DNA of 64,000 nt from Pseudomonas abieticivorans. Its GTDB lineage: Bacteria; Pseudomonadota; Gammaproteobacteria; Pseudomonadales; Pseudomonadaceae. Position numbers and translations under genes: made by a program. The DNA is taken from the NCBI RefSeq assembly GCF_023509015.1, contig NZ_CP094975.1, positions 5,325,501 to 5,389,500 of the forward strand, in the 5' to 3' direction. Of this stretch, positions 21,771 through 41,833 are shown one piece after another (positions within the stretch are counted from its first letter, which is position 1; each line of letters begins with the position of its first letter). The notes under the pieces were generated by a model. That model worked only from the letters and a program-made list of their open reading frames with translations, did not search any database and was not told the origin of the DNA.

Positions 21771-23165
21771 TCAATCCACGCGCTCGATCTTTGGCGATTT
21801 CCAACTGCCCTCCAGCAGCGCTGCCTTGGGCCAGTAATAGCGCATGGCTGCCATGAACGGCCCATTGGGGGTGGGCAGCCAGTTGGCCTCTTTGTCCTTG
21901 CCTGGGCTTTCGTGTTGCAGGTACAGGGTGAGCCCGCCATCGGCATCCATGGCCAGCCCCGGCAGCATGGGCGAGTTGATCAAGTAGCGGTTGAGCGGGT
22001 TGTCCACCAGTAGTTGGCTGGGCAGGGTGTACATCGTCAGCGACCAAAAGGCGTTGACCGGTGGCTGCTGACCCTTGGCAAAGCGCAATAGATATTTGTG
22101 CTTGCTGCCGTCTAGCGGCTGGCCCGTGGCGTCGTTGTCGTAGATAGGGTACATCGCCTCCTCGCGAGAGTTGGCACCGATCCCCATTTGCGCTCCGGTG
22201 GCGCGGGTCACGTAGTTATTCTTGAGGAAAGCGCGGGTGCCGAACAGCGTATCGGTCTTGCCACCCAGGGACTTACGCAAGGCGTCAATCTGCTTCTGGC
22301 CGTCCTCCATGCCATTTTTCAGCGCCGCCTGCTGGGCTTGCGGCAGGGCACTCAGGTCGAGCGGTTTGCCGGGCACGATGCCAATTTCAGTGAAGCGTTT
22401 GCGCAATGCCGCTTCGCTGGGGTGGGTGGGTGCGAACTGCAACAAGAAGGCCAACTGGTTGAAAAACTCAAGGTTGGTGCGCTCGTTGCTGGCGGCGATT
22501 GGCTTGATCCATTTGATGTCGGCGGGGGGCTTGGGAGGCTTACTTTTTGCAAACGCTGATAACGGCTGTACGGTGTAGCCCGCTTGCAGTTTTTTGACGT
22601 TGTCCAGGTCAGCCGGGTTGAACAACTGGGTGCGGCCTACCACCGAGACCAGGTCGGTTTCGGCCGCGATGACCTTGTCGATGCCGGCCGGTTTTTTGCC
22701 GTGCCAACGGGGCCCTGCGATCAGGTAGGTGCCACCCTGGTTGCCGGTGGTGCGGGTGCCAATGTAGTCGAAGTTGAAGGTGTAGAGGTCCATCAACTGG
22801 AACACGAAATAGCGGTTTTTTTCCATCTTAGGCACATGGATCACGATGGGCTCGGCGCGTAGGTCCAGGCCGATGAAGGAGTAAGGGGTATCGGAGTTGG
22901 GCGTGACAAATGCGGTGTCGGCTGGGGTGAACACCCGCGAGATATTCAGGATGCTGTTGAACGGGCCTTTGTATTGCGGGCTGTCCTTGTCGATGGAGAA
23001 CGCGTACATCACCCGATAAGTGTCGACCATGGGCGTGCCGAACAGATAGGCCTGCTTGGCGATTTCGCGCGTTTGCGCCGTCGTTGGGGCTGCGCTGGCG
23101 TGTAGCGCAAACGCCAGTAATACTGCGGTCGCCAGGGTGCTGGCGAACAACCATTTTTTTAACAT
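21771..23165 (-). CDS. DUF1254/DUF1214 exported protein (last gene of the large cluster)
   Basis: 464 residues with a signal peptide (LFASTLATAVLLAFALHASA). The N-terminal DUF1254 domain (about 30-170: IAKQAYLFGTPMVDTYR, TPNSDTPYSF) and the C-terminal DUF1214 domain (about 320-455: FWSLTMYTLPSQLLVDNPLNRY) are complete. Family function is unknown; members are periplasmic. It is a paralogue of the gene at 39614, sharing phrases such as VFTPADTAFVTPNSDTPYSF. It lies 40 bases after the octaheme cytochrome gene and closes the unidirectional cluster. Confidence 0.92.
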   Translation of the reverse strand: MLKKWLFASTLATAVLLAFALHASAAPTTAQTREIAKQAYLFGTPMVDTYRVMYAFSIDKDSPQYKGPFNSILNISRVFTPADTAFVTPNSDTPYSFIGLDLRAEPIVIHVPKMEKNRYFVFQLMDLYTFNFDYIGTRTTGNQGGTYLIAGPRWHGKKPAGIDKVIAAETDLVSVVGRTQLFNPADLDNVKKLQAGYTVQPLSAFAKSKPPKPPADIKWIKPIAASNERTNLEFFNQLAFLLQFAPTHPSEAALRKRFTEIGIVPGKPLDLSALPQAQQAALKNGMEDGQKQIDALRKSLGGKTDTLFGTRAFLKNNYVTRATGAQMGIGANSREEAMYPIYDNDATGQPLDGSKHKYLLRFAKGQQPPVNAFWSLTMYTLPSQLLVDNPLNRYLINSPMLPGLAMDADGGLTLYLQHESPGKDKEANWLPTPNGPFMAAMRYYWPKAALLEGSWKSPKIERVD

Positions 23166-23205
23166 GCGACGCTCTCCCTGTGTGAGTCAGGGAGAGCGTA
23201 GCCCA

Positions 23206-25557
23206 TCATTTTGGTGGGGGTTGCAACACCGGATCGTCTGGGTTGATCTGCGCCAGCGCTTGCAGAAGTTGCCGCGCCGCCTGCCCCTTGCCCTGTTCCT
23301 GGTAGTACTGCGCCAGGGTCAGGCGCAGGTCGCGGTTGGCCGGGTGGCGCGCCAGGGCGGCCTGCAGGGTGTCGTTGGCCGGTTGCAACTGGCCGCTGTC
23401 GTGCAAGGCTATGGCCAGCACGAAGCTGTATTGCACGTTGTCCGGTTCAAGCGTGGCGGCCTGGCGCAGGCTGGCGATGGCCTCGGGCATCTGTTTGGCG
23501 CGGATCAGGCGCAAGGCGCGGGTGTGCAGCAGCAACCCGGACTCGGGGTGGGCCTTGACGGCCTGATCGAGCAGCGTGGTGGCTTCGCTGCCGCGGCCAT
23601 GGTTGTCCAGCCACTGGCCCAGGGCGACGGTGGCCGGGAGGAAGTCCGGATCGCGCACAATGGCTGCGCGCAGGGCCGGTTCCACTTCGCTGGAGCGACC
23701 GCTGGCCTGGTAAAACATGGCCAGGTTGAGGTTGGCCTCGGCCCGTTCGGCCAAGGCTTTTTGCACCGCTTCGTACTCGGCGATGGCGCTGTCCCAGGCC
23801 GGTTGCGCCACACCCAGCCCGACCAGCCCGGGGTTGAGCAGATCGCGTGCGGCGGCGATGCGCACGGCGCGCACCGGATCGCTTAGCAGCGGTACCAGAT
23901 AAGCGCTGCGCTGCATCGGCTCGACCAGGGCGCTCAAGGCATGCACGGCGCTTTCACGCACTTGCGGCGCGGGGTTTTGCAGGTCGCGGCCCACCAACTT
24001 GAGCGACAGTGGCGTGGGGTAGGTGGGCACTTCGGCCAGCAGCGTGGCCCGGCGAATGGCCGGTAGGTTGTTTTGTTGCAGCAACGTGGTCAACGCCTGG
24101 GCGCCGCCGGGCTGGCCGCCACGGATCAGCCACAAGCCTTCGTCGTAGCGCGGTGGCTGGGGTTTGTCGACGCCGTACCACAGGCGAAATTGTTCGCTGA
24201 CCTTGCTGGCGGCCGTGTCCTGGTGGCAACCGAGGCAGGCATCGGGGGTGCCGAGCTTTTGCGCCCGCGGGGGGTTGGGCAGGCTGAAACCGTGGTCATG
24301 GCGGTAGTCGTTGACCATGTACAGCTTGCCGGGCATGTGGCAATCCACGCACTGGGAACCGGGTTGGCCGGGCTGGTGATGGGTGTGCTCGGGCGAGTCG
24401 TAGTTCTTGGCCTGCAAGCCGCGCCCGTCGACCGTGTCATAAGGCGTTTTGCCGGCGGTGTTGTGGCACTGCAGGCACACGCCATTGCCGCTGGCCTTCA
24501 GTTCGCTGCTGTGGGGGTTGTGGCAGTTGCTGCAGCGCACGCCCTTGTCGAACATCTTGCTTTGCTTGAACGAGCCGTCCTCGAACACCTCCTCCTTGAT
24601 CTTGCCGTCCAGGGCATACAACTCGCGGGTCAGGGTGGCGGGCAGGTAGTCGTCCATCAGCCGATTTTTATTGGCGTAGCCGTCGTCCAGTGGCGCGCGG
24701 CGGGCGTGGCAGCGGGCGCAGGTCTCGATTTCGCTGGTGGCGTCCTTGGCCGCCAGGTTTACCTCAAAGCCCGCGTTGGCCACGGGTGACTGCTTGGCCG
24801 CCCAGGCCAGGTGATTGGACGCAGGCCCATGGCAGGCCTGGCAGCCCACGCCCAGGCTGTTCCAATGGCTGGCAAAGGTGTTGCTGGCGGCATCGAAGTT
24901 GCGTTTGAAACCGGTGGTGTGGCATTCCACGCACATGAAGTTGGCGTTTTGCGAAGGCTTGCTCCAGTGCAGTGGGTTCTTGAAGTTCACGCCTTGGCCG
25001 GGGTACAGGTGGAACCAGCGCTTGTGTTCGGTATCCCAGGCCACGCCCAAGGCCTGCAGGCGGCCGCCTTCGGCCTCCAGCAAATACTGCTGCAACGGCG
25101 CCACGCCAAAGGTATAGGCCACCTTGAAGTCGGCAGGCTGGCCATTGGCGCCGGGTGTATTGACCCAGAACGCCTGGTCTTTTTCAAAGAAACGCACGGC
25201 TTCCTTGTCGCCCTTGAACGTCACGTCCTTGAAGTCGCCGAGCACGGTGGCGGGGGTGGCCGCCTGCATCGCCATCTGGTGGTGCGAGCCTTGCCAGTCC
25301 TTGACCTGTTGCACGTGGCAGCCCTGGCAGGTGCTTTCGTCCACCCACTGTGCCGCAGGTGGCGGCACCGGGCGGGCGGCGGCTGCTGGCGGGCTGGCCT
25401 TGACGACCACGGGGGCTGGGGGCGGTGCCTGGATAAACCACCACAAGCCGATCACCGCCACCACGGCGAGGCCGGCGATCAGGCTGTAGATGAGGTTGTG
25501 CGAAGTGCGGTGAGGGCTGGAATCGGTGCGGCCTGGGTGTTGTTTTTTTGTGGGCAT
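23206..25557 (-). CDS. Octaheme c-type cytochrome with HEAT-like and TPR repeats
   Basis: 783 residues from the ATG at 25557 (another Met is four codons upstream). An N-terminal membrane anchor (about 22-44) and a Pro/Ala linker lead to eight CXXCH haem sites: CQGCH, CVECH, CQACH, CARCH, CSNCH, CLQCH, CVDCH and CLGCH, all in residues 77 to about 440. The rest is a HEAT-like segment and about four TPRs (LALGQWLDNHGRGSEATTLLDQA and later), ending near residue 780. The haem part would sit in the periplasm and move electrons; related multihaem proteins act on nitrogen or sulphur compounds, but the substrate here is unknown. It pairs with the upstream MFS-spermidine-synthase gene. Confidence 0.93.
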   Translation of the reverse strand: MPTKKQHPGRTDSSPHRTSHNLIYSLIAGLAVVAVIGLWWFIQAPPPAPVVVKASPPAAAARPVPPPAAQWVDESTCQGCHVQQVKDWQGSHHQMAMQAATPATVLGDFKDVTFKGDKEAVRFFEKDQAFWVNTPGANGQPADFKVAYTFGVAPLQQYLLEAEGGRLQALGVAWDTEHKRWFHLYPGQGVNFKNPLHWSKPSQNANFMCVECHTTGFKRNFDAASNTFASHWNSLGVGCQACHGPASNHLAWAAKQSPVANAGFEVNLAAKDATSEIETCARCHARRAPLDDGYANKNRLMDDYLPATLTRELYALDGKIKEEVFEDGSFKQSKMFDKGVRCSNCHNPHSSELKASGNGVCLQCHNTAGKTPYDTVDGRGLQAKNYDSPEHTHHQPGQPGSQCVDCHMPGKLYMVNDYRHDHGFSLPNPPRAQKLGTPDACLGCHQDTAASKVSEQFRLWYGVDKPQPPRYDEGLWLIRGGQPGGAQALTTLLQQNNLPAIRRATLLAEVPTYPTPLSLKLVGRDLQNPAPQVRESAVHALSALVEPMQRSAYLVPLLSDPVRAVRIAAARDLLNPGLVGLGVAQPAWDSAIAEYEAVQKALAERAEANLNLAMFYQASGRSSEVEPALRAAIVRDPDFLPATVALGQWLDNHGRGSEATTLLDQAVKAHPESGLLLHTRALRLIRAKQMPEAIASLRQAATLEPDNVQYSFVLAIALHDSGQLQPANDTLQAALARHPANRDLRLTLAQYYQEQGKGQAARQLLQALAQINPDDPVLQPPPK

Positions 25558-25631: not shown

Positions 25632-28142
25632 TCAACGCGCATTGCCCATGAACCAGTCGAAGTAGGGGTTGGTGCGGTCCTCTTCCAGCACCGCCTGCAT
25701 GTCCCGGGCCCAGGCGCTGCGTTCGCCCTGGTAGGCGTGCAGGCTGGCGCGATAAAACAGCCTGAGGCGCTGGGTATGGGTGGCCAGGCGTTCATTGAAC
25801 ATCGGGTTTGCATTGTTGATCGGCGGCGGCTGGTACAGGCCGAGCAGCGCCGGCAGGGTGCGGGTGATCTCGCCCGGGCGCACCCAGGGCGCGTATTCGA
25901 TGTGCGGGCGATCGTCGGTCACCGCCGGGGCATCGCCGGCAAAGCGTTCCAGGCCCTGGCGATCGGTCAGCCAGGTGGCCAGCAACGCGGGTGCAGAACT
26001 GATGCCCACGGCCTGCAAGGCGTCGCGCACGCTCGGTTGGTTGAAGCGCGCGGTGATGATGTCGGCGTCCAGGGTGATCGGGGCCAGCGAGCCCACCAGC
26101 AGGGTTTCGTGGAACTCGCTGGTCCACAACGTGGCGTAGGGGAACACGTCGAGGAAACTGCGCACCAGCGAGCGGCTCTCCTCCAGGTTCTGGGTAGGCA
26201 GGGGCAGCCATTGGGCGACCAGCCCGTTGGGCTCCAGGCGCCGTGCGGCCAATTGGTAGAAGTCCCGTGAATACAGGTTGACCACGCCTGCGGCGGAGGG
26301 CGGCGGCGGCTCCAGGGTGATCAAGTCGTAGGCCTGGGGGTTGCCGAGCAGTTCGCGGCGGCCATCGCGTAGGCGCACCTCCAGGGCCGGATCGCTGCCA
26401 GCGCCGAAATTACCCTTGAACAGCGGCGCGGCTTGCACCACGCCGGGCAGCAATTCGGCCACTACCCGGCGCTCAAGGCCTGGGTATTGCAGCAGCGCAC
26501 CGGCAGTGATGCCGGTGCCAAAGCCGATCACCAGCGCCGATTTAGGCTCGCCGGTATGGATCAACAACGGCAGCAACGCCTGGATGCGCATGTAGCGTAG
26601 CGACGGCATGGCATCCCCCGTGTTGCTGACACCCTGGATGTACAGGCGGTTGAAGGTACGCGCGGCGTTGCCTTGGGTGACCACCGCGACGGTGCCGCCA
26701 CGGCCCTCCTGGTAGAACGCCAGGTGGCCAGTGCGGGCGCCGGACAGCAGCCCGGCGAGCTTGTCCACTGGCGCCAGCACGGCAACGCCCAGGGACACCA
26801 GGGCCAGCGCCACCACGGCCTGGCGGCGGCCCTTGGCAACGCTGGCGCGGTTCCACACGGCAACCACGCCGATCAGCGCGGCGATAATCGCCAGCGCCCC
26901 CAGGCTGCGCACCAGACCCAGCCAGGGCGCCAGCACCAGGCCGCTGAGCAGCACGCCGACGATACCGCCCAGGGTATTGAGCGCCAGCACCGCGCCCACG
27001 TCGCGGCCCACGTGCCCTGGGCTAACGCTCAGGCGCAAGGCCAGCGGGAAGGCGGCGCCCAGTAGCAGGGTGGGCAGGAATACCACGCCTAGGGCTGCCA
27101 CCGTGAAACGCGAGAGCATGCCGGCCATCTCGTCGCCGCCCAGCAGGGTGACGAAGGCTTCGGCCTGGGTTTGCAGCACCACCAGCCAGCGGCCCAGCAG
27201 GGCGATCTCGACCAGCGCGATCAACCCGGCCCCGGCGATCAGCAGGGCAAACAGACCCCAGGGGTCACGCACCTGAGCGCTGCGCCGGGCCACCAGGGCA
27301 CTGCCCAGCACCAACCCCAGCAGGTAGGTGGCCAGCACCACGGCGAAGGCGTAGGTGCGGGTGCTCATGAACTGCACGATGGACTGCGACCACACCACTT
27401 CATAGCCCAGTGCCACGCCGCCGGCGATGGCGTACAGCAGCAATGCCAGGCGCGCCTCGACGCTGCGCGGCTGGGCCTGCCCGCTCACCACCGGTACCGC
27501 TGCTTGGCGTAGCAATGCCAGGGCCAGGCCTGCGGCGATCAGGTTGAGCACGGCGGCCGCCAGGGCGCTGCCACGGATACCCAGCAGCGGGATCAACACA
27601 AAGGCGGCGAGCAGGGTGCCGACGATCGCCCCGGCGGTGTTGGCGGCGTATAACAGGCCGCCTGCGCGGGCGGTGGTTTGCAGCGCCAAGGCCAGCGCGC
27701 GGATCAGCACCGGCAGGGTGCCGCCCATCAGAAACGCCGGCACGCCGACCAGGGCAAAGGGCAGCAGCCAGGCGAGCAAACCGGCCTGGGCCTGCAGCCG
27801 CACGAACCATTCGGCCGCCGGTGTCAACAACCAGGTGCAGGCTACGCCCAGCACTGCCACGGCCACCTCCAGCCCGGCATACAGGGCCACGGGGCGGGCC
27901 AGGCGATCTGCCCAGCGGCCAAAATAATAACCACCCAGGCCCAGGCCTGCGAAAAACGCGCTGATGCCGGTGGTAATCGCGTACACCTCCACGCCCACCA
28001 CCAGTGACAGTTGCTTGATCCACAGCACCTGGTACACCAGCGCGGCGCAGCCGGACACCAGCAGCACCAGGGCCGACAAGGTGATTCCATTCACGGGGGT
28101 TGCAACGGCACTGCGGCGGGCGTTTGCGGGAGTAGAGGTCAT
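25632..28142 (-). CDS. Fused MFS-like membrane domain and spermidine-synthase-like domain
   Basis: 836 residues. Residues 20 to about 440 hold some 12-14 membrane helices with a repeated MFS-like phrase (GLGLGGYYFGRWADRL, ANTAGAIVGTLLAAFVL, LNTLGGIVGVLLSGLVLAPWLGL). The C-terminal half (about 480-800) has the SAM/decarboxy-SAM binding fold of spermidine synthases (LVIGFGTGITAGALL, DLITLEPPPPSAAGVVNLYS). The usual acidic catalytic residues are hard to place, so aminopropyl transfer is not assured. Proteins of this fused type often sit next to multihaem/TPR cytochromes, as here (62-74 bases downstream), suggesting joint function in the envelope. Confidence 0.85.
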   Translation of the reverse strand: MTSTPANARRSAVATPVNGITLSALVLLVSGCAALVYQVLWIKQLSLVVGVEVYAITTGISAFFAGLGLGGYYFGRWADRLARPVALYAGLEVAVAVLGVACTWLLTPAAEWFVRLQAQAGLLAWLLPFALVGVPAFLMGGTLPVLIRALALALQTTARAGGLLYAANTAGAIVGTLLAAFVLIPLLGIRGSALAAAVLNLIAAGLALALLRQAAVPVVSGQAQPRSVEARLALLLYAIAGGVALGYEVVWSQSIVQFMSTRTYAFAVVLATYLLGLVLGSALVARRSAQVRDPWGLFALLIAGAGLIALVEIALLGRWLVVLQTQAEAFVTLLGGDEMAGMLSRFTVAALGVVFLPTLLLGAAFPLALRLSVSPGHVGRDVGAVLALNTLGGIVGVLLSGLVLAPWLGLVRSLGALAIIAALIGVVAVWNRASVAKGRRQAVVALALVSLGVAVLAPVDKLAGLLSGARTGHLAFYQEGRGGTVAVVTQGNAARTFNRLYIQGVSNTGDAMPSLRYMRIQALLPLLIHTGEPKSALVIGFGTGITAGALLQYPGLERRVVAELLPGVVQAAPLFKGNFGAGSDPALEVRLRDGRRELLGNPQAYDLITLEPPPPSAAGVVNLYSRDFYQLAARRLEPNGLVAQWLPLPTQNLEESRSLVRSFLDVFPYATLWTSEFHETLLVGSLAPITLDADIITARFNQPSVRDALQAVGISSAPALLATWLTDRQGLERFAGDAPAVTDDRPHIEYAPWVRPGEITRTLPALLGLYQPPPINNANPMFNERLATHTQRLRLFYRASLHAYQGERSAWARDMQAVLEEDRTNPYFDWFMGNAR

Positions 28143-28234: not shown

Positions 28235-29827
28235 TTATTGCTTGGTGCCTTGCTCTTTCATTTTCTGTTCGATCTTGGCGTCAACCTGCTTGCGCACCTG
28301 GTCGATGCTGAAGCTCGCCGGGTGTTGGCTCGGCGGGTACTCAACGAAGGTCTGCAGGAATATCGAGGCCTTCATGGTCGCGATACCGGTCAGGTAAACG
28401 TTTTTCGCCAACCAGTCGTTGTACTGGTCAGAGACAACGTCGGCGCGCTCATACGGGTCCATGCGCAGGTTGAAGATTTTCGGCACCCGCAGGCACACGA
28501 AGGGGTCTTGCCAGACTTCGAAACCGCCCGGTTTGCGCTGTTCGCAGAACACCGCTTTCCAGTCACCCCAACGCATGGCCACCAGGTCGCCGTCGTCGTT
28601 GAAGTAGTAGAACTCGTCGCGTGCGCCCTTAGGTTGCTGGCCGGTGATGTAAGGCAATTGGTTGTAGCCGTCCAGGTGCACCTTGAAGCTCTTGCCGCCG
28701 GTGCTTGGCGACCAGCCCTTGAGCAGCTTGTTTTTCACGTCCGGATCGCCAGCGGCGGCCAGCAGGGTAGGGAACCAGTCCATCCCGGAGAACATCTCGG
28801 TGCCGACGGTGTTGGGCTTGATTTTGCCCGGCCAGCGAATCATTGCCGGCACCCGGAACGCACCTTCCCAGTTCGAATCTTTCTCGCTACGGAAAGGCGT
28901 GGTCGCCGCGTCCGGCCACGAGAACTGGTTGGGCCCGTTGTCGGTGGTGTAGACGACGATGGTGTTGTCGGCGATTTTCAAGTCGTCGATGGTTTGCAAG
29001 AGCTTGCCGACGTCACCGTCGTGCTCCAGCATGCCGTCGGCGTATTCGTTGCCGGGCATGCCGCTCTGGCCCTTCATCGAATCACGCACGTGGGTGAACA
29101 CGTGCATGCGCGTGGTGTTCATCCACACGAAGAACGGCTTGTCGGCCGCCACTTGTTTCTTCATGAACTCCTGGGCGGCGCCGGTGGTTTCGTCGTCGAT
29201 GGTTTCCATGCGCTTTTTGTTCAGCGCGCCGGTGTCTTCGATCTTGCCATCGGCGAACGAGTGAATGACTCCGCGTGGGCTGAAGTTCTTGACGTAAGGG
29301 TCGTTAGGGTCCTGTGGCCAGTACGGGCGCTCGGGTTCTTCTTCGGCATTGAGGTGGTACAGGTTGCCGAAGAATTCGTCAAAGCCATGCTTGGTGGGCA
29401 GGTACTCGTCCTTGTCACCCAAGTGGTTCTTGCCGAATTGGCCCGTGGCGTACCCCAGGCCCTTGAGTGCCTGGGCGATGGTGATGTCACGGTCCTGCAG
29501 GCCCACCGGTGCTCCGGGGGCGCCTACTTTAGACAGCCCGGTGCGCAGCACCGACTGGCCGGTGATAAAGCTTGAACGCCCGGCGGTGCAGCTGTTTTCC
29601 GCGTAGTAGTCGGTGAACAGCATGCCTTCGTGGGCGATGCGGTCGATGTTCGGCGTCTTGTAGCCCACCACTCCTTGCCCGTAGGCACTGATGTTGGTCT
29701 GGCCGATGTCATCCCCGAATATCACCAGAATATTGGGCTTCTCGGCCGCCCCGGCCGCTGCTGCCAACCCCATGACCGAAGCCGCCACCACGGCGAGTTT
29801 CGGTAGCCACTTGCGTATGCGAGTCAT
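28235..29827 (-). CDS. Exported arylsulfatase with CTAGR active-site motif
   Basis: 530 residues from the ATG at 29827, chosen because GGGAGG lies just upstream and a signal peptide follows (LPKLAVVAASVMGLAAAAGA). Metal ligands D39/D40 (FGDDIG), the modified residue in NSCTAGRSS (C80, R84), GKNHLGD and YTTDNGPNQ are all in place, so the type I sulfatase fold is complete. The motif is CxAxR, not the aerobic standard CxPxR read by formylglycine-generating enzyme. No sulfatase-maturing enzyme is encoded in the window. It hydrolyses a sulfate ester or, less likely, a phosphonate ester in the periplasm. It follows the exported HAD gene by 80 bases. Confidence 0.93.
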   Translation of the reverse strand: MTRIRKWLPKLAVVAASVMGLAAAAGAAEKPNILVIFGDDIGQTNISAYGQGVVGYKTPNIDRIAHEGMLFTDYYAENSCTAGRSSFITGQSVLRTGLSKVGAPGAPVGLQDRDITIAQALKGLGYATGQFGKNHLGDKDEYLPTKHGFDEFFGNLYHLNAEEEPERPYWPQDPNDPYVKNFSPRGVIHSFADGKIEDTGALNKKRMETIDDETTGAAQEFMKKQVAADKPFFVWMNTTRMHVFTHVRDSMKGQSGMPGNEYADGMLEHDGDVGKLLQTIDDLKIADNTIVVYTTDNGPNQFSWPDAATTPFRSEKDSNWEGAFRVPAMIRWPGKIKPNTVGTEMFSGMDWFPTLLAAAGDPDVKNKLLKGWSPSTGGKSFKVHLDGYNQLPYITGQQPKGARDEFYYFNDDGDLVAMRWGDWKAVFCEQRKPGGFEVWQDPFVCLRVPKIFNLRMDPYERADVVSDQYNDWLAKNVYLTGIATMKASIFLQTFVEYPPSQHPASFSIDQVRKQVDAKIEQKMKEQGTKQ

Positions 29828-34542: not shown

Positions 34543-35401
34543 GGTGGCCCTCCACCCATTGGCGGCTGTGCTGCAACAGTTGGCGGGTGGCCAGATCGGC
34601 CGGCAGCGGTGCGTAGGCCAATTGGGCCAGTTGCTGGCTGAAGTCGGCTGGCAGCGGTTGTTTGCTGTGGGCCTGCAGAAACTGCTGCCAGGCCTCGCCC
34701 TGCAAGGTGGCCACGGCCGGGTTGCCGGGCATGGACAGGGCGACGCGCTTGAGCAGCTCAGGCAGTTCGCGCAGGGCCCCGGTGGTGCCGGCGCGTTCGA
34801 TTTGCGCCAGGCGCAGCAGGGCGTCACGGCGGTACTGGTTTTGCCGCCACTGCCACAGGCGCCAGGCGGCGTAGGCGATGAGCGCGATGATCAACAGCAC
34901 GGCCACAGCGGCCCAACCCCAAGTCTGGGGGGTGTAGCTGATGGCGGGCGGCAGGGCCATTTCCCGCAGTTGTTCAATGTCAGGCCGCTGTGTAGGAGCG
35001 GATTTATCCGCGAAGGCCGTGCCGCCGTACATCAGGCATACCGCAGCGATTTTTTCGCGGATGAATCCGCTCCTACAGGGGGGCGGGGGTGCGGCTGTAG
35101 GAGCGGATTTATCCGCGAAGGCCGCGCCGCCGTACATCAGGCATACCGCAGCGATTTTTTCGCGGATGAATCCGCTCCTACAGGGGGGCGAGGGTGCGGC
35201 TGTAGGAGCGGATTTATCCGCGAAAGCCGCGCTGCGGTACATCAGGTACGGCGCAGTAATTTTTTCGCGGATGAATCCGCTCCTACAGGGCGTCGGGGGT
35301 GCGGCTGTAGGAGCGGATTTATCCGCGAAGGCCGCGCTGCGGTACATCAGGTACGGCGCGGTAATTTTTTCGCGGATAAATCCGCTCCTGCAGGGGTTCA
35401 T
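34529..35401 (-). CDS. DUF4381 protein with four REP units translated in its N-terminus
   Basis: 290 residues if read from the ATG at 35401. That start overlaps the DUF58 stop as ATGA, the coupling used throughout the operon, and gives MNP. Four copies of a 35-residue REP-encoded unit follow (CRSGFIREK...FADKSAPT), then the normal protein resumes at QRPDIEQLREMALPPAISYTP. One membrane helix (about 158-182, WGWAAVAVLLIIALIAY) and a cytoplasmic helical domain complete the DUF4381 family, which always sits in MoxR/DUF58/VWA operons. Without the repeats the protein would be about 150 residues, the usual size. An internal start (for example at REMALPP) is possible, but no good ribosome binding site is seen there. 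Confidence 0.8.
   Translation of the reverse strand: MNPCRSGFIREKITAPYLMYRSAAFADKSAPTAAPPTPCRSGFIREKITAPYLMYRSAAFADKSAPTAAPSPPCRSGFIREKIAAVCLMYGGAAFADKSAPTAAPPPPCRSGFIREKIAAVCLMYGGTAFADKSAPTQRPDIEQLREMALPPAISYTPQTWGWAAVAVLLIIALIAYAAWRLWQWRQNQYRRDALLRLAQIERAGTTGALRELPELLKRVALSMPGNPAVATLQGEAWQQFLQAHSKQPLPADFSQQLAQLAYAPLPADLATRQLLQHSRQWVEGHHVAT
34991..35395. repeat. Tandem array of four 105-bp REP doublet units inside a gene
   Basis: Each unit starts with TGTAGGAGCGGATTTATCC and contains the facing arm GCGGATGAATCCGCTCCTAC; starts are at 34991, 35096, 35201 and 35306, exactly 105 bases apart. The spacers differ slightly between the first two and last two units (GTACATCAGGCATACCGCAG versus GTACATCAGGTACGGCGC), so they fall into two pairs. 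Because 105 is a multiple of three and the minus-strand frame has no stop, the DUF4381 frame stays open. The plus strand is open as well, but that is a by-product. Confidence 0.97.
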
Positions 35402-36336
35402 TGTTGCCTCCCCAATTCCGAACGTAGTTGTTCCAGGGCCGGGAACTCGGTGCTGAACATCAGCAGCGGCACCTGGCTGCGGCGCAACAGGCTGGCGACT
35501 TCCTGCAGCCGCCCGCCGAGGAACTCGCCCAGGGGTTTGTGCACCTGGCGTTTGCCGACGGCCAGCTCGATCTGCAGTTGCCCCTGGGTAACCAGCAACC
35601 GCCCCTTGTCGGGTACGTTCAGGGCGATGGGGTCATACACCTGCAAGGCCAGCACATCGTTGTGCGCGCGCAATTGGCGAAGCAGTTGCAAGGTGCGCGG
35701 GGTGGCACCGGCAAAATCGCTGATCAGGCAAATCAAATGGTCGTGCCCGGCCAAGGCCAGGCAACGCTGCAGCACGTTGTCCAGTTGCTGTTCGCCCTCG
35801 CTGTCGGGATTGCTGGCCGACAGTTGCTGATTGTGTTGGACCAGGTGCGCGCACAACGCCTGCACCCGGGCGCGGCTGCGCAAGGGGGCGACACTGTCGA
35901 TGCGCTGGTCGTTGAACACCAGCCCGCCAACCCGGTCGCCACTGTTGAATACCATCCACGCCGCAAGCGCACCCAGCTCGGCCGCCAAGGCCGACTTGAA
36001 GCTGCGTCTGGAGCCGAAAAACATCGACATGCGCTGGTCCACCACGATCAAGGCCGGGCGGTCGCGCTCTTCGGTGAAGCTGCGCACCACGGCTTTTCCG
36101 GTGCGTAGCGAGGCGCGCCAGTCCAGGTGGCGCAGGTCATCGCCCGGCTGGTAGCGGCGCAGTTCGTCAAAGTTCAGGCCGCGCCCGCGCAAGCGCGAAG
36201 CATGGTTGCCGGCCAACAGGCTGTGGCGCGGCTGGCGGGCCAAAAAGCTCAAGCCACGGCTTTGCTCGGCCAAGCCCATCAACTGGCTCAGCGAAATATA
36301 GACCAGCCCGTCTACCGCCTGCTCGGGCACCTGCAT
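35398..36336 (-). CDS. DUF58 domain protein
   Basis: 312 residues from the ATG at 36336, eight bases after GAGGAG. The DUF58 signature is GRGLNFDELRRYQPGDDLRHLDWRASLRTG (about 50-80), followed by a degenerate VWA fold: LIVVDQRMSMFFGS replaces the usual DxSxS metal site. No membrane segment. In MoxR operons DUF58 proteins bridge the AAA+ ATPase and membrane VWA proteins. It lies 10 bases after the MoxR stop and is coupled to DUF4381. Confidence 0.92.
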   Translation of the reverse strand: MQVPEQAVDGLVYISLSQLMGLAEQSRGLSFLARQPRHSLLAGNHASRLRGRGLNFDELRRYQPGDDLRHLDWRASLRTGKAVVRSFTEERDRPALIVVDQRMSMFFGSRRSFKSALAAELGALAAWMVFNSGDRVGGLVFNDQRIDSVAPLRSRARVQALCAHLVQHNQQLSASNPDSEGEQQLDNVLQRCLALAGHDHLICLISDFAGATPRTLQLLRQLRAHNDVLALQVYDPIALNVPDKGRLLVTQGQLQIELAVGKRQVHKPLGEFLGGRLQEVASLLRRSQVPLLMFSTEFPALEQLRSELGRQQ

Positions 36337-36346
36337 CACGCACTCC

Positions 36347-37315
36347 TCAGGCCGGCAGGGCCACTTTTTCCTGAAGCCGATCCAGCACGGCGTCGGCACT
36401 GATGCCGTCGGCCACCGCGTCGTAGCTCAACTGCAGGCGGTGGCGCAGCACCGGGTGCAGCACCGCGCGCACGTTGTCGGGCGTGACAAAGGTTTGGCCC
36501 TTGAGCCAGGCATCGGCGCGGGCGCAGCGGTCCAGGCCGATGCCGCCGCGAGGGCTGGCTCCTATGTTGATCCAGCGGCCCAGGTCGGCGTCGTAGTCGG
36601 CGGGGTGGCGGGTGGCGTTGATCAGGTCGATCAGGTAACGGTCGATGGCCGGTGCCACGCTGATCGCCGCGACCTCCTCGCGCGCCGCAAAAATCACTTG
36701 CTGGCCCAACTTGAACGCTGACGCCAGCTCGGCGGCCTGCTCTTCGTTGCGCAATAGGCGCAGCACTTGGGCTTCATCTTCAGGCTTGGGGTAGTCGAGC
36801 AGTACCTTCATCAAAAAGCGGTCCATCTGCGCCTCCGGCAGCGGGTAGGTGCCTTCCTGTTCGATGGGGTTTTGCGTGGCGATCACGATGAACAGCGGCG
36901 GCAACACATGGCTCTTGCCGGCCACGGTGATCTGCCGTTCTTCCATGGCTTCCAGCAACGCGGCCTGGACCTTGGCCGGGGCGCGGTTGATCTCGTCGGC
37001 CAGGATCAGGTTGCCGAACAAGGGCCCTGGCTGGAACTGGATCTGGTTCTGCCCGTTGGCCTGGTGCAGCACTTCGGCGCCGGTGATGTCCGAAGGCAGC
37101 AGGTCAGGGGTGAACTGGATGCGGCTCATCTGGGCATCCAGGTGCCGGGCCAGTGCCTTGACCGTGCGGGTCTTGGCCAGCCCCGGCAGGCTCTCCAGCA
37201 ACAGGTGCCCATTGGCCAATAGGCCCAGCAGCACCTGGCGGATCACCGCGTCCTGGCCCAGCACGCCTTCGGCGACGCTTGCGTGCAAGGCCTTGATGTC
37301 ATCGAGTGTGCTCAT
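36347..37315 (-). CDS. MoxR-family AAA+ ATPase
   Basis: 322 residues from the ATG at 37315. Walker A is the MoxR variant LPGLAKTR near residue 46, Walker B is LILADEINRAP near 110, and sensor 1 is IATQNPIEQEG. The C-terminal lid with ISVAPAIDRYLIDLINATR is conserved. MoxR ATPases work with VWA proteins as metal- or cofactor-inserting chaperones (the founding member is needed for methanol dehydrogenase). Its position ahead of DUF58, DUF4381 and two VWA genes completes the machine. The frame extending upstream into the Pro/His-rich gene is an artefact. Confidence 0.94.
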   Translation of the reverse strand: MSTLDDIKALHASVAEGVLGQDAVIRQVLLGLLANGHLLLESLPGLAKTRTVKALARHLDAQMSRIQFTPDLLPSDITGAEVLHQANGQNQIQFQPGPLFGNLILADEINRAPAKVQAALLEAMEERQITVAGKSHVLPPLFIVIATQNPIEQEGTYPLPEAQMDRFLMKVLLDYPKPEDEAQVLRLLRNEEQAAELASAFKLGQQVIFAAREEVAAISVAPAIDRYLIDLINATRHPADYDADLGRWINIGASPRGGIGLDRCARADAWLKGQTFVTPDNVRAVLHPVLRHRLQLSYDAVADGISADAVLDRLQEKVALPA

Positions 37316-37319
37316 AGGG

Positions 37320-37913
37320 TCACCATGGCGAATGCACGACAATGAATTGCACGCTGCTGCCCACGTATTGCGGCTGGTACCAGGTGGGCCCGCAGTGCTG
37401 GTAGGCCACGCCATTGGCCACCACCGACACGCAATCGGCCGGGATGGTGGTGACCCGGGTGCCCACGGCGATAATGGCTGCCGTGGTGCCGGCCACGACG
37501 GCGGCAGCGGCCCAAGGGTGGTACCAGTCATCGCCATGCGGTGGCGGCGGTGGTGGGGGCGGCGGCATCGGATGCGGGCCCGGGCCAGGTCCTGGGTAGG
37601 GGCCGGGGTGCGGACCGGGCGGCGGCATCGGGTGCGGCGCCGGGCCAGGTGGCATCGGATGCGGCTGTGGCCCCGGCATGGGATGCGGTTGCGGCGCGGG
37701 CATCGGATGTGGCTGCGGCGAAGGCATGGGGTGCGGCTGGGGTGCAGGCATTGGCCGAGGCGCGGGCGGTGGTGCGCCATGGAAGTTGCCACCATGCGGC
37801 ATCACGAAGCTGCGGCCACCGCCACCGCCGCGCATTTGCCAGGCGTTGGCGGCCAGGGGGTCAAGCAGGCTGACGATCAGGCCGGCGGTCAGCAGAAGGC
37901 GCATGGGTTTCAT
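37320..37913 (-). CDS. Exported Pro/His-rich protein, DUF6515-like C-terminus
   Basis: 197 residues with a signal peptide (LLLTAGLIVSLLDPLAANA). Residues 45-130 are Pro/His/Met-rich, built on an eight-residue unit like MPAPQPHP that is encoded by 24-bp direct repeats. The C-terminal part (about 135-195) has a hydrophobic segment (AAAVVAGTTAAIIAVGT) and CVSVVANGVAYQHCGPTWYQPQY, a two-Cys motif typical of small Pseudomonas periplasmic proteins (DUF6515-like, from memory). The His/Met content could bind copper or other metal; this is inference. It overlaps the DUF2092 stop by four bases and precedes MoxR by four. Confidence 0.82.
   Translation of the reverse strand: MKPMRLLLTAGLIVSLLDPLAANAWQMRGGGGGRSFVMPHGGNFHGAPPPAPRPMPAPQPHPMPSPQPHPMPAPQPHPMPGPQPHPMPPGPAPHPMPPPGPHPGPYPGPGPGPHPMPPPPPPPPPHGDDWYHPWAAAAVVAGTTAAIIAVGTRVTTIPADCVSVVANGVAYQHCGPTWYQPQYVGSSVQFIVVHSPW
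37651..37764. repeat. 24-bp tandem repeat coding for Pro/His units
   Basis: Four full units of 24 bases start at 37651, 37675, 37699 and 37723, each beginning GGCATCGGATGCGGCTG or close, with a partial fifth. They lie inside the Pro/His-rich gene and keep its frame, so unit number could vary between strains without breaking the protein. Confidence 0.85.
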
Positions 37914-38674
37914 GGCTGCTCTCCTGCAGGCGCTGGCACGGGCGCTTGAATCACCCGCAGGGGCACCTGCTGCGCCTTGGCCGGCGGGATGAAGGTGAAG
38001 GTATTGGCCGGGATCTGGGCCTTCAGGTCCCAGTTGAAGTCGACACTGTGGCGCGGCAGCTCAGGGGTGTCACGGCGGGTGATGACCAGGCGGCAGGGCA
38101 GCGGGTCGGGACCGGTGCGCACCCACAGCTGCCAGTCGATGTCGGGCTGACGGTAGGCGTAATGGGTGCAGGTGTAGGCGCCCAGGCGCTCGTCGCCAAT
38201 CACCAACGCTTCACTGATGCCCACGTCCTTGGCCGTGGTCGGCCCCCAGCGGAACAGGTCCGACAGTGGCAGTTCGATGCCGTAGCGGTCGGCAATGTCA
38301 TCGAGCAACGCATCGATGGTCGCTGGCGCCGGGCCGTTGGTGTAGTAGCCGTAATGGCCGTCGTACAAGGTGAAGCTTTTGCCGTCATAAAAGAACTGCC
38401 GTGCCGACGTGCCCTGGTCGACGCTGACGTGCAGTTTGTCCGGGTGCACGGTGAGCACGTCGGTGCGGTGATGGAACTCCACCACCTGGCCGGTCTCCAG
38501 GGTCTGGTCGGTGGCGCTCTCGGCGCTCAAGGCGTAATGGGGCAGGGCGTGCAGGTAGCGGCCCATGGTCTCAAGTACGCCCAGGGCGCGGCTATCCATT
38601 TCTGCTGGTGCCTGGGCATGGGCGCTGCCGGCCAGGCACAGGCCCAGCAGCAACGCGATACGGGTGTAGTTCAT
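37910..38674 (-). CDS. DUF2092 exported protein
   Basis: 254 residues with a clear signal peptide (RIALLLGLCLAGSAHA). The body is a beta-sheet shell of the lipoprotein-carrier type: VEFHHRTDVLTVHPDKLHVSV, FFYDGKSFTLYDGHYGYY, and late ITRRDTPELPRHSVDFNW, the DUF2092 pattern. Such LolA/LppX-like folds bind hydrophobic ligands in the periplasm. Function in this family is unknown. It is coupled to the following gene by a four-base overlap and lies 13 bases after the MetA-type gene. Confidence 0.85.
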   Translation of the reverse strand: MNYTRIALLLGLCLAGSAHAQAPAEMDSRALGVLETMGRYLHALPHYALSAESATDQTLETGQVVEFHHRTDVLTVHPDKLHVSVDQGTSARQFFYDGKSFTLYDGHYGYYTNGPAPATIDALLDDIADRYGIELPLSDLFRWGPTTAKDVGISEALVIGDERLGAYTCTHYAYRQPDIDWQLWVRTGPDPLPCRLVITRRDTPELPRHSVDFNWDLKAQIPANTFTFIPPAKAQQVPLRVIQAPVPAPAGEQP

Positions 38675-38687
38675 GGTGCGCTCCCGG

Positions 38688-39593
38688 TTACCAGACGTAT
38701 TGCAGGCGGAACGTCCACACGTTCACGTCAGGCGAGCCTTCGCGCTCCGACACCGTGTCGGAATAGGCCACCAATCCGCCGAACTGGGGTGACAACATGA
38801 AGCCCAGGCTGGCGCCGGCCAGGGAGTTTTCCTTCTTGTTGTCTTGCCAGTCGCCGTTGATGCGGGTTTCGCCGCCGACGTTGTAGGTGGCGTCCAGCGA
38901 TACCCACAGGGCGCGGTTAATGGTGTAGCTGTAGTGTCCTTCCACGGCGTACAGGGGTTTTTGCTCAAGCTTGTTGTTGCCCAGGTAGTCATCGTTGTCG
39001 CCGTACAGCGAGACATAGGTGTTGAACTCAAGCCAAGTAGGGCCAATGGGGGTGCCGAAGGCGATCTCCGGCTTGAACACCCATCGGTTGGCGCCGATGT
39101 TGATGACTTTTTTCTTGTCGTAGTCACCGGTGGGCACGGTCAGCCAGGCGGCGCCGGACAGGAAGGTCTCGGGCTTCCAGTTCATGAACTCCTCGGCGCT
39201 CAGGGCCGGGCCACCGAAAAAGTTGTGGGCCAGTACCACCTGGCTGTCGCCCATGCCGCTGTTGTGCTTGGTGCCGCTGAAAAACTGCGCATTGTCGAAC
39301 GAGGCACTGAGGTCGGCGTAGGGCTGCAGGAACTGGATGGCGGTATTGCGCCCGTCTACCGAGAACGAGCGGGCATAACGAAAAATGTACACGTCGGCAT
39401 TCAGCGACAGGCCGTCCAATGGCACCGAGGTGTCGATCGGGGTGTTGGTGTCCACCAATGCGTAATAACCGAACACCATGTTCAGGTCAGTGGGCGTGTT
39501 TTGCCAGTCGCGGGCGTTGTCGGCCTGGCTCACCAACGGTGTGGCGGCCAGGGTGAGGGCGGTCAGTCGACCCAAATGCGTACGGTACCCCAT
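38688..39593 (-). CDS. Outer-membrane protein of the MetA/phenol-degradation family
   Basis: 301 residues with a short signal peptide (LTALTLAATPLVSQA). Alternating strands ending in aromatic residues and a terminal FRLQYVW are those of an outer-membrane barrel. The phrases FLQPYADLSASF, GMGDSQVVLAHNFFGGP and WLTVPTGDYD are typical of the MetA-pathway group, thought to admit hydrophobic aromatic compounds. It lies 20 bases after the DUF1254 gene. The ligand here is unknown. Confidence 0.85.
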   Translation of the reverse strand: MGYRTHLGRLTALTLAATPLVSQADNARDWQNTPTDLNMVFGYYALVDTNTPIDTSVPLDGLSLNADVYIFRYARSFSVDGRNTAIQFLQPYADLSASFDNAQFFSGTKHNSGMGDSQVVLAHNFFGGPALSAEEFMNWKPETFLSGAAWLTVPTGDYDKKKVINIGANRWVFKPEIAFGTPIGPTWLEFNTYVSLYGDNDDYLGNNKLEQKPLYAVEGHYSYTINRALWVSLDATYNVGGETRINGDWQDNKKENSLAGASLGFMLSPQFGGLVAYSDTVSEREGSPDVNVWTFRLQYVW

Positions 39594-39613
39594 GGTTTTG
39601 CTCCTTCAAAAAT

Positions 39614-41014
39614 CTAGCGGGCAGTCGGGATCAGCAGCGGCAGTTTCCATTGGCCATTGGCCAATGTCGGCCCGGGCATGTACACGCGCAACACCCCGTA
39701 GAACGGGCCGTCCGGTGCCGGCAACCAGTTGCTTACCTTGTCTGTTCCGGGCGAGTCGTGCTGCACGTAAAGGGTCAGGCCGCCGTCGGCGTCCTTGTGC
39801 AGCTGGCCGAGCATGCGCGAGTTGATCAGGTAGCGATCCAGTGGGTTGTCCACCAGCAGCTTGGTCTTGGCGTCGTACATCGTCAGTGACCAGAAGGCCT
39901 TGGCAGGGGGCAGCTCGCCCTTTTTGAAATGCAGGGTGTAGTTCTGCTTGGCGGCGTTGGCCGGTTGGCCTTTGGCGTCGGTGAAGTAGCCCAGGTAATT
40001 GGCTTCGGCGGCCGAGTTGCCGAAGATGCCCATGTTGGCGCCCACGTAGCGGTACAGGTAGTTGTTCTTGAGGTGCTCACGGGTGCCGAAGAAGTCGCCG
40101 CTGGTGAGCTGGTGCGTGTCGATCTTGGTCTTCTTCAAATCGGCAAATTCGGCCTTGCCGGCTTCGATGCCGCGCTGCAAGGCAGCCAATTGCTCGGGGC
40201 TCAGGCTTTTTTCGTCAAAGGCAGCGCCTGGGCCGACATCGATTTTCGCCAGGCGCTTGAACAGCTCGGTTTCGCTGGCCACCGGTTGCGCGAAGCCGAG
40301 CATGAAATCCAGGTAGCGGAACAGCGCCGGGCTGTCGCTCATGTCGGCCTGGGGCGCTGGCCAGTCGATGGCGGGGGCGGCGGGCGGCGCGGGTTGCTTG
40401 AGGTATTCGCTGAGCGGTTGAACCTTATAGCCCTGTTGGATTTGCTGGACCTTGTCCAAGTCCTTGTCATCGAACAATTGGGTGCGATACAGGCCATAGA
40501 CGATGTCGCCTTCGCTGCGCACGACCTTGTCGACATTGGCAGGCTTGGGGCCTTTCCAATGGGGGCCGGCCACCAGGAAGTGGCCGCCTTTGTTACCGGT
40601 GGTGCGGGTGCCCAGGTAGGCGAAATTCTGCGTGTACAGGTCGATCAATTGGGTGGAGTAGTAGCGGCTGCCGTCCACCGCCGGAAGGGTCAGCACTTGC
40701 GGTTCGGCGCGCAGGTCCAGCCACACGAACGAGTAGGGCGTGTCCGAGTTGGGCGTGATGAATGCCGTGTCCTTGGGCGTGAACACCCGGGCGGTGTTGC
40801 CGATCTGGTTGAACGGTGCCTTGTAGTCGGGGCCGTCCTTATCCACCGCTTGGGCGTAGAGGGTCTTGTACATCTCCACCACCGGAAAGCCGTACAGGTA
40901 GGCTTGCTTGGCCAGTGCCTCGGCTTCGCTGGGGGTGGCGCTGAACTCGGCCAGTGCCGGTGCGCTGATCATCAAGGCCAGTGACGGGATCAACAACAGG
41001 TTCAAAGACTTCAT
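39614..41014 (-). CDS. DUF1254/DUF1214 exported protein (near start of the cluster)
   Basis: 466 residues; start chosen at 41014 with AAGGA nine bases upstream, followed by a signal peptide (LNLLLIPSLALMISAPALA). DUF1254 (about 35-170: LAKQAYLYGFPVVEMYKTLY, FITPNSDTPYSFVW) and DUF1214 (about 320-455: FWSLTMYDAKTKLLVDNPLDRY) are complete. It is closely similar to the protein at 21771, so two paralogues bracket the cluster. Periplasmic; activity unknown. Confidence 0.92.
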   Translation of the reverse strand: MKSLNLLLIPSLALMISAPALAEFSATPSEAEALAKQAYLYGFPVVEMYKTLYAQAVDKDGPDYKAPFNQIGNTARVFTPKDTAFITPNSDTPYSFVWLDLRAEPQVLTLPAVDGSRYYSTQLIDLYTQNFAYLGTRTTGNKGGHFLVAGPHWKGPKPANVDKVVRSEGDIVYGLYRTQLFDDKDLDKVQQIQQGYKVQPLSEYLKQPAPPAAPAIDWPAPQADMSDSPALFRYLDFMLGFAQPVASETELFKRLAKIDVGPGAAFDEKSLSPEQLAALQRGIEAGKAEFADLKKTKIDTHQLTSGDFFGTREHLKNNYLYRYVGANMGIFGNSAAEANYLGYFTDAKGQPANAAKQNYTLHFKKGELPPAKAFWSLTMYDAKTKLLVDNPLDRYLINSRMLGQLHKDADGGLTLYVQHDSPGTDKVSNWLPAPDGPFYGVLRVYMPGPTLANGQWKLPLLIPTAR

Positions 41015-41041
41015 GTGAACGGATCCTTGTTAACGCGACAA

Positions 41042-41833
41042 TCATTTACCGAGGGTGACGTTGATGCCCGCAAATAGCGTGAATTGCGGCACGCCTGCGC
41101 CTTCGTGTTGCACCGTCCATTGGGGCTCGACATAGGCGTTGAAAATATTGACGCCCACCTTCCAGGCCCTGCCCACGCCCAAACCGATGGGGATGTAGTG
41201 GGTGTCGTTTTTCAGATCGAACGTCCACGTGCCGGTGGAGCGCAGGTACCAACCCTTGGGCAGGTTGTGAATGACAAAGGGCTGGAAGGTGGCGGATTCG
41301 ACATGTTCGCGGTCGCTGTCGCCGGCGAACGAGCTCTGGTATTGCACCAGGGCGCCCAGCAACCCGCGCGGGGAGGCGTCGATGGCAATCGCCGCCAGGC
41401 CCGCCTGCCATTTGCCGGTGCCCAGTTCGTCGTGCGCGGCGGTGGGCGCGGTGATTTGCGGGCCGATGCCCAGTTGCACACCTTCGGTCTTGAGCAAGAA
41501 GATGTCGAACAGGTTCAGGTCGCCCATGCCCGTGCTGTAGCCGCCTTTTGGGTCGGGGCGGGTGCTGATCGGCAAGGTGGCGCGCAGTAATTGCGGCACG
41601 CCGATAAAGTCGCCCGGGGCAACTGGCAAAGTGCCACGTAATAGCGTGTCGTTAGTATGGAGGTTGCTGTTATATAACTGCGGGGTGTAATAGTCCTGCA
41701 GGTTAAGACCCGGCGCCAAGTTCAGCGGGTTATTACTTTTGTTGGCGGTATCGGCATTGTCGGCCAGGGCAAATTGGCCAGCTTGGAGGCTCAACGCCAC
41801 GCCCAGCGCGGTGCGGGTGAATAATCTGTCCAT
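41042..41833 (-). CDS. Outer-membrane-type protein, first gene of the large cluster
   Basis: 263 residues from the ATG at 41833 (a TTG four codons earlier is possible). Signal peptide TALGVALSLQAGQFALA. The body has alternating strands (GMGDLNLFDIFLLK, GPQITAPTAAHDELGTGKW, YVEPQWTVQHEG) and ends GINVTLGK, like small barrel or MetA-like channel proteins. It has no exact named family that I recognise. Being first, it marks the probable promoter side of the cluster; the 248-base gap upstream is shared with a divergent oxidoreductase gene. Confidence 0.8.
   Translation of the reverse strand: MDRLFTRTALGVALSLQAGQFALADNADTANKSNNPLNLAPGLNLQDYYTPQLYNSNLHTNDTLLRGTLPVAPGDFIGVPQLLRATLPISTRPDPKGGYSTGMGDLNLFDIFLLKTEGVQLGIGPQITAPTAAHDELGTGKWQAGLAAIAIDASPRGLLGALVQYQSSFAGDSDREHVESATFQPFVIHNLPKGWYLRSTGTWTFDLKNDTHYIPIGLGVGRAWKVGVNIFNAYVEPQWTVQHEGAGVPQFTLFAGINVTLGK

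Follow-up and report, generated by a model that had tools for sequence, protein, structure and literature searches.

An octaheme cytochrome as a candidate maturase of exported sulfatases in a sixteen-gene run of Pseudomonas abieticivorans

Layout of the sixteen-gene run

We analyzed a 64,000-nucleotide stretch of the Pseudomonas abieticivorans genome (contig NZ_CP094975.1, positions 5,325,501 to 5,389,500), hereafter the window, which contains a run of sixteen genes for a Bat-type (MoxR-VWA) system, an exported HAD protein, an exported type I sulfatase and a membrane-anchored octaheme cytochrome. The cytochrome, referred to as CYT, is considered here as a candidate sulfatase maturase. All sixteen reading frames (16/16) lie on the minus strand, from 41833 to 21771, as the original prediction for this DNA had it, and the families that it named were recovered by Pfam and NCBIfam searches (DUF1254 twice, Phenol_MetA_deg, DUF2092, MoxR, DUF58, DUF4381, VWA, VWA-TPR, BatD, HAD, sulfatase, MFS/spermidine synthase and cytochrome). 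In the direction of reading, the features are:

41042–41833, minus strand: B1, probably an exported protein, no family assigned, earlier labeled a barrel (open reading frame and start; relatives below)
39614–41014, minus strand: DUF1254/DUF1214 protein, copy a (Pfam; solved relatives VPA0106, 3u07, and VPA0735)
38688–39593, minus strand: Phenol_MetA_deg-type protein, a barrel by family name (Pfam)
37910–38674, minus strand: DUF2092 periplasmic protein (Pfam)
37320–37913, minus strand: Pro/His-rich protein (open reading frame; no Pfam match)
36347–37315, minus strand: MoxR AAA+ ATPase (AAA_3, 206 bits, and AAA_lid_2; start 37315)
35398–36336, minus strand: DUF58 protein (Pfam; start 36336)
34987–35396, no strand: REP-like inverted-repeat array with a 105-base period, between DUF58 and DUF4381 (repeat analysis)
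34529–35401, minus strand: DUF4381 protein, conserved part from about 34987 (Pfam match from residue 144)
33550–34542, minus strand: VWA protein (VWA Pfam; start 34542)
31985–33565, minus strand: VWA-TPR protein (VWA_2 and TPR Pfam; start 33565)
30924–31988, minus strand: BatD-like protein (PF13584, 26.5 bits against a cut-off of 24.1; start 31988)
29908–30927, minus strand: HAD protein with N-terminal export signal (Pfam; solved relative 4ovy, E 1e-103)
28235–29827, minus strand: type I sulfatase with export signal, motif CTAGR (PF00884; N-terminal hydrophobic stretch; start 29827)
25632–28142, minus strand: fused MFS/spermidine synthase-like membrane protein (NF037959, 115.9 bits against a cut-off of 40)
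23206–25557, minus strand: CYT, membrane-anchored octaheme cytochrome with a beta domain and a C-terminal HEAT/TPR superhelix, candidate sulfatase maturase (eight CxxCH, model, distribution; start 25557)
21771–23165, minus strand: DUF1254/DUF1214 protein, copy b (Pfam)

Neither B1 nor the Pro/His-rich protein had a match in the Pfam search, and the barrel label for B1 is therefore a matter of appearance only. MoxR, DUF58, VWA and BatD genes are present in one run, as in Bat / MoxR-VWA systems, and the VWA-TPR protein is similar to the Leptospira BatB and BatC models, with scores under their cut-offs. Three more MoxR-like genes (45–49% identity) are found in the window genome, at G000:C1:4603281-4604354, 3704660-3705583 and 4615571-4616428.

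The tight spacing claimed for the run held for most of its length, where revised starts leave short gaps or overlaps, and failed between DUF58 and the conserved part of DUF4381, which are about 410 bases apart. Inverted repeats of the GTAGGAGCGGATTTATCCGCGAA type fill this interval, arrayed with a period of 105 bases. The period is a multiple of three and the DUF4381 frame is uninterrupted across the array; thus, either the protein has a repeat-coded extension or it starts downstream of the array. The genes tested on either side, an MFS transporter (20004-21374) and a zinc-type dehydrogenase (42013-43038), are both on the plus strand, so the run is bounded. A promoter and terminator scan gave counts close to those in shuffled sequence.

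Conservation of the locus

Relatives of the locus were collected from GTDB genomes with the HAD protein as query. The best 80 of 561 confirmed matches, 79 in Pseudomonas and one in Azomonas, are called the named loci, and the HAD gene is present in 80/80 by construction. At least three genes of the Bat block were found in 72 of these loci, the sulfatase in 74, both in 71, the MFS/spermidine synthase in 71 and the cytochrome in 73. Some form of DUF1254 was present in 46 loci, B1 in 37, the Pro/His-rich gene in 10 and DUF2092 in 8. The core, MoxR-DUF58-DUF4381-VWA-VWA/TPR-BatD-HAD-sulfatase-MFS/spermidine synthase-octaheme cytochrome, is mostly one syntenic block in Pseudomonas with variable upstream genes, and the sixteen-gene run is more than a chance arrangement. 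Eight named loci have fewer than three Bat genes: at L070 and L131 the contig breaks off, at L099 the sulfatase match is partial, and the rest are five HAD-cytochrome loci to which we return below.

Of the genomes sampled from the genus of the window, 20 of 59 carry the HAD protein, a patchy distribution; across the phylum, it was found in 31 of 349. All 30 places outside Pseudomonadaceae, in 27 genomes, were taken as distant HAD loci. Twelve of the 30 have at least three Bat genes within about 10 kb, and 11 of these also have a sulfatase. The distant Bat-HAD-sulfatase loci show several gene orders (e.g., L139, L142, L143, L146, L149, L156, L162 and L163); the order changed while the company was kept, which argues for a shared function. 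The tie between Bat block and sulfatase that the original prediction had drawn is thus borne out, both being found in 71/80 named and 11/30 distant loci. A gene-neighborhood check for unlinked blocks found them linked in most loci and unlinked in a minority, namely 5/80 named loci and some close sulfatases around which the fetched sequence shows no Bat gene (L037, L039, L040, L053 and L054).

Other neighbors were seen around these relatives. The CTAGR sulfatases of L037, L039 and L040 adjoin DUF1302 and DUF1329 genes, and FadL or DUF1302/DUF1329 genes adjoin some relatives. Such neighbors would agree with the suggestion of the original prediction that the barrels and DUF2092 may handle a hydrophobic substrate, but say nothing more. 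A DUF3313 gene lies on the opposite strand near the cytochrome in 44/80 named loci (e.g., L122:14006-14680), with none noted in the window. Among the first 100 loci mapped, a gene for a DnaJ-domain membrane protein precedes the cytochrome in nine and one for a DUF3829 protein in ten (e.g., L071, L078, L057 and L059).

CYT, its sulfatases and the known maturases

Type I sulfatases carry an active-site Cys or Ser that is converted to formylglycine by FGE or anSME. The window sulfatase (PF00884, 163.9 bits) has the C/S-X-P/A-X-R motif in the form CTAGR, and its relatives with at least 40% identity in the loci examined are all CTAGR (132) or STAGR (3). A second CTAGR sulfatase, 50% identical, is encoded outside the operon in the window genome (G000:C1:6628809-6630380, L267). 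A clear FGE was found at 9/30 distant HAD loci (L138, L139, L140, L143, L144, L146, L147, L149 and L151) and an anSME (radical SAM/SPASM) at 5/30 (L154, L160, L162, L163 and L165), while 0/80 named loci had either.

In the window genome as a whole, PF03781 finds just two proteins, and the residues of both speak against a real FGE. The one that lacks the FGE Cys pair is presumably PvdO-like, and the second we take to be EgtB/OvoA-like; the frames beside the PvdO-like gene look to us like a dipeptidase and a PLP enzyme. Queried with an FGE, the window genome gave a single weak match (45 bits), which fell on the PvdO-like gene; at E ≤ 1e-20, an FGE from a CTAGR locus had no match. Searches for anSME, with the TIGR03942 model and with the L165 protein (E ≤ 1e-8), found nothing in this genome. 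A hidden FGE was rejected on the assignment of the two PF03781 proteins. Also rejected as FGE substitutes were the MFS/spermidine synthase and HAD proteins, both of which coexist with FGE at L146, L149 and L151, and the Bat system was rejected as a substitute for FGE or anSME since it coexists with both kinds of maturase at the same loci.

CYT carries eight CxxCH motifs. An N-terminal membrane helix (residues 20–43) is followed by a beta domain (residues 97–183) that lies between hemes 1 and 2 and contains the conserved stretch PLQQYL, and a HEAT/TPR superhelix spans about residues 470–775. Its structure was predicted with pLDDT 87 and pTM 0.86 (45 sequences). The heme profile matches 6i5b (E 5e-24), which we take to be OcwA, as well as 6qvm, c554 (1bvb), NrfA chains, octaheme nitrite reductase and MccA. 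Seven His residues outside the motifs are kept in 93–100% of sequences (five invariant, two nearly so); with eight hemes to ligate, this hints, and no more than hints, that one of them could be left open or have another ligand. The structural matches listed for the model are almost only TPR proteins, headed by the TPR regions of O-GlcNAc transferase, an enzyme that modifies proteins, and the TPR part of CYT resembles peptide-binding superhelices. No protein-level NCBIfam family matched CYT at cut-off, only a doubled-CXXCH domain model just reaching its own, and in the sources it is often named "tetratricopeptide repeat protein", also CXXCH protein and others (among the matches listed, 120 of 7966). 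These features, a redox protein that would face the periplasm, a tail that would bind proteins and exported sulfatases encoded nearby, are ones that could be expected of a maturase.

CYT was sampled in HAD-positive genomes and in Pseudomonadaceae. A set of 63 genomes, comprising the 31 HAD-positive genomes of the phylum sample, 19 more from the window's genus and 13 family genomes with a sulfatase relative, was searched with FGE, anSME, the heme part of CYT and the sulfatase, counting FGE and anSME at ≥190 bits and sulfatase at E ≤ 1e-60. FGE was found in 14 genomes, anSME in 8 and CYT in 47, of which 40 had CYT alone. A sulfatase match was present in 62/63 genomes, and 62/62 of these have FGE, anSME or CYT; G389, which has none of the three, is also the sole genome without a sulfatase match. 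The sulfatase survey used one query, and sulfatases overlooked could raise or lower these figures; in G278 the match is only a 37%-identical STPGR protein. Outside Pseudomonadaceae (26 sulfatase genomes), CYT was present in 6/6 genomes without a maturase compared with 5/20 that have one (p 0.002 in a Fisher test, with no correction for kinship). The six come from six different families, and family f34 has one genome of each kind.

Among 119 Pseudomonadaceae, FGE was found in 5, CYT in 44 and a sulfatase match at E ≤ 1e-10 in 41 (anSME was not searched across this set). CYT was present in 37/41 genomes with a sulfatase match versus 7/78 of the others, an association equaled by within-genus shuffles in 8 of 20,000 (for the 96 of 119 genomes with a genus listed). 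The 1e-10 threshold was chosen after seeing the matches; the counts for both, sulfatase only, CYT only and neither were 41/5/3/70 at 1e-8 and 43/33/1/42 at 1e-3, both far from chance. Three of the four sulfatase genomes without CYT have FGE (G091, G102 and G113), and G003 has neither (anSME not searched there). An exported Cys-type sulfatase is known from the fetched loci in 38/119 genomes, and CYT is present in 34/38 of these versus 10/81; three of the other four have FGE. Eight weaker sulfatase matches are choline-sulfatase-like CAPSR proteins, seven of them without a signal, while that of L255 depends on the start chosen.

CYT is also physically linked to sulfatases. At least 17 of 51 CYT places in Pseudomonadaceae lie within 6 kb of a sulfatase (a lower bound, as the sulfatases were counted among the matches listed), compared with 0.48 expected at random and a maximum of 5 in 200,000 simulations. 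At 14 of the 17, the sulfatases are of the CSPTR or CSPGR type and no Bat gene lies in the fetched stretch. Within 6 kb, 85/85 CYT-linked and 23/23 FGE-linked sulfatases are Cys-type, whereas anSME-linked ones comprise 10 Ser and 4 Cys; some "S" motif assignments among the CYT- and FGE-linked proteins were discarded as motif-search artefacts, all being CTAGR. By a simple test, an export signal was found in 95/98 sulfatases less than 9 kb from CYT, and the other three have one further upstream. An anSME adjoins each of the Ser-type SSATR sulfatases of G011, G028, G102, G109 and G107 (the motif had been established in advance for G011 and G028, and came to light together with the anSME for G102 and G109); those beside anSME in Pseudomonadaceae (L272, L288–L291) are about 800 residues long. 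At L260, L261, L262 and L264, also in Pseudomonadaceae, exported CSPTR sulfatases have as neighbor an FGE that carries the catalytic Cys pair and, at its N-terminus, an anchor or a signal; judging from their N-termini, these FGEs are apparently periplasmic.

A tree built from 62 less similar sulfatases requires 17 changes of partner label, and shuffled labels require about as many (mean 17.8). For the CYT label, 10 changes are required, with at least 8 of them forced by well supported branches, and the CYT pairing therefore arose or was swapped repeatedly, instead of being one inherited neighborhood. This is what mutual replacement of partners would look like.

Not all CYT copies are near sulfatases. 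One unlinked copy adjoins cytochrome c and a GMC oxidoreductase, and those of L236, L239 and L221, in one Pseudomonadaceae genus, are near a T2SSE-type ATPase and a Band_7 protein, with no sulfatase in view (the two families were shown for L236, and for L239 and L221 by similarity).

Interpretation, alternatives and known systems

Making formylglycine from Cys takes a two-electron oxidation and then a hydrolysis. FGE relies on copper and oxygen, and anSME on a radical. We consider it quite possible, if short of probable, that the operon builds and activates the exported Cys-type CTAGR sulfatase, with CYT oxidizing its Cys to formylglycine and Bat presenting the protein. More broadly, and somewhat more tentatively, CYT may represent a third way of forming formylglycine, unrelated to FGE and anSME. 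It would be an oxidase of protein cysteines, located in the periplasm and coupled to respiration, that serves several families of exported Cys-type sulfatases in Pseudomonas and in other Pseudomonadota, and Bat would present the CTAGR sulfatase to it. The original prediction had listed the cytochrome among the possible clients of the Bat machine. We have given up that view: CYT is distributed as a partner standing in for FGE or anSME would be, and it pairs with quite different sulfatases without Bat in view. It is probably a tool of the sulfatase system, not a client.

In the proposed mechanism, the sulfatase would be exported with its cysteine unmodified, and the VWA, TPR and BatD proteins, with MoxR supplying energy, would keep it accessible on the outer side of the inner membrane. 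The TPR superhelix of the membrane-anchored CYT would bind the sulfatase, and CYT would take two electrons from the active-site cysteine, turning the thiol into a thioaldehyde that is hydrolyzed to formylglycine; the hemes would pass the electrons towards the respiratory chain. The HAD, DUF1254, DUF2092, barrel and MFS/spermidine synthase proteins may serve in substrate handling or assembly. The Cys motif of the CYT-linked sulfatases fits heme oxidation, because a serine could not be oxidized in this way. Since CSPTR sulfatases pair with CYT without Bat in view, Bat may be needed only for the CTAGR family and not for CYT action.

Several points weigh against this proposal. Its weakest step would be the presentation of the CTAGR sulfatase by Bat, for which linkage is the sole basis. 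Five of the 80 named loci (L059, L087, L090, L114 and L125) encode HAD and the cytochrome but show no Bat gene and no sulfatase in the sequence fetched, and the neighbors scanned at six unlinked or distant CYT copies were unrelated to sulfatases. Because the FGE-linked sulfatases are also all Cys-type, the motif pattern separates CYT only from anSME and not from FGE. Five distant genomes have CYT plus a maturase (G221, G294, G362, G427 and G438); in these, CYT is near a Cys-type sulfatase. G252, counted as CYT-only, carries a short FGE fragment beside its HAD gene (L141:8293-8433, 62% identity over the matched part), which may be the leftover of a lost FGE. CYT occurs without a known exported Cys-type sulfatase in 10 of the 44 CYT-bearing Pseudomonadaceae (G011, G028, G040, G049, G052, G062, G066, G095, G108 and G115). 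Conversely, G003 has an exported, lipoprotein-like CSPSR sulfatase (L266) with no CYT or FGE match, anSME not having been searched. Cytosolic-looking Cys-type sulfatases, choline-sulfatase-like CAPSR and PAS-like CSPTR, are found in genomes without FGE matches; therefore, either another system must exist, which could serve the exported sulfatases too, or these enzymes work unmodified. Finally, the genomes were chosen by HAD or sulfatase matches and the loci include near-copies and some duplicates between the named and unnamed sets, so that the counts are not independent events.

The alternative that survives best, although we think it rather unlikely, is that CYT transfers electrons in some later reaction, such as the periplasmic oxidation of the desulfated product, and that the sulfatases are activated by another system. 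The kinship of its heme part with multiheme redox enzymes, cytochrome c554 and NrfA among them, would suit such a role, as would the copies away from sulfatases, among them the one beside cytochrome c and the GMC oxidoreductase. However, CYT pairs with sulfatases of different families (CTAGR, CSPTR and CSPGR), whose products should differ, and its presence tracks the absence of FGE and anSME, which a product-oxidation role does not predict.

It is unlikely that the Bat machine, with HAD, itself matures the CTAGR sulfatase, as the original prediction had proposed, leaving the cytochrome as client or passenger. The linkage described above (11/30 distant and 71/80 named loci) is what such a role would lead one to expect, but Bat coexists with FGE or anSME at L139, L143, L146, L149, L151, L162, L163 and L165, and so is not their replacement. 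We regard it as quite improbable that CYT guards the exported cysteine from disulfide formation or over-oxidation without making formylglycine: this would fit the Cys-type, exported pattern of the CYT-linked sulfatases, but 11 of the 14 FGE genomes in the 63-genome set are without CYT, so protection is not generally needed. Least probable is an ecological association, in which organisms that use sulfate esters tend to have both CYT and sulfatases, with no shared step; the ten genomes that have CYT but no known exported Cys sulfatase and the five named loci with HAD and CYT but no sulfatase would agree with it, and the adjacency at 17/51 CYT places against 0.48 expected, together with the inverse relation to the maturases, would not.

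How Cys-type sulfatases are activated in bacteria without FGE or anSME has been a question since at least 2007, and CYT offers a single candidate gene and a sharp prediction. If the proposed role of CYT as cysteine oxidase is true, it would mean new chemistry for a catalytic aldehyde in proteins, useful for protein labeling, and the Bat machine would gain a defined client. A literature search, with subscription papers largely outside its reach, showed nothing among the papers listed that links multiheme cytochromes to sulfatase maturation, or MoxR or DUF1254 to sulfatases, and no described Bat system tied to sulfatases.

Among known systems, FGE (PF03781) is alike in that it adjoins the same sulfatase family in relatives of the locus and partners Cys-type sulfatases, and some Pseudomonadaceae FGEs have an anchor or signal at the N-terminus; CYT differs in having no FGE domain, being an octaheme c-type cytochrome with TPR. 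anSME (AtsB; radical SAM/SPASM) is found in the same operon at L162, L163 and L165, beside STAGR sulfatases, but is a radical SAM enzyme that also serves Ser-type sulfatases, whereas the CYT-linked ones seen are all Cys-type. E. coli is said, in a title from Benjdia in 2007 that PMC6189696 and PMC6315715 cite, to have a third sulfatase maturation system. It resembles the one proposed here in that Cys-type sulfatases are handled without FGE, but it acts on sulfatases expressed in E. coli, whereas CYT would be periplasmic; a 2015 paper calls the E. coli machinery for sulfatase Cys modification elusive (PMC6189696). The run has MoxR, DUF58, VWA, VWA-TPR and BatD in common with Bat / MoxR-VWA systems, and in an account of MoxR-VWA conflict systems, a formylglycine-enzyme-type domain appears as an occasional effector (PMC7159879). 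With the multiheme cytochromes of the c554/NrfA/OcwA type, CYT shares its heme profile and multiple CxxCH motifs, and it differs from them by the extra beta domain between hemes 1 and 2 and by the C-terminal HEAT/TPR superhelix.

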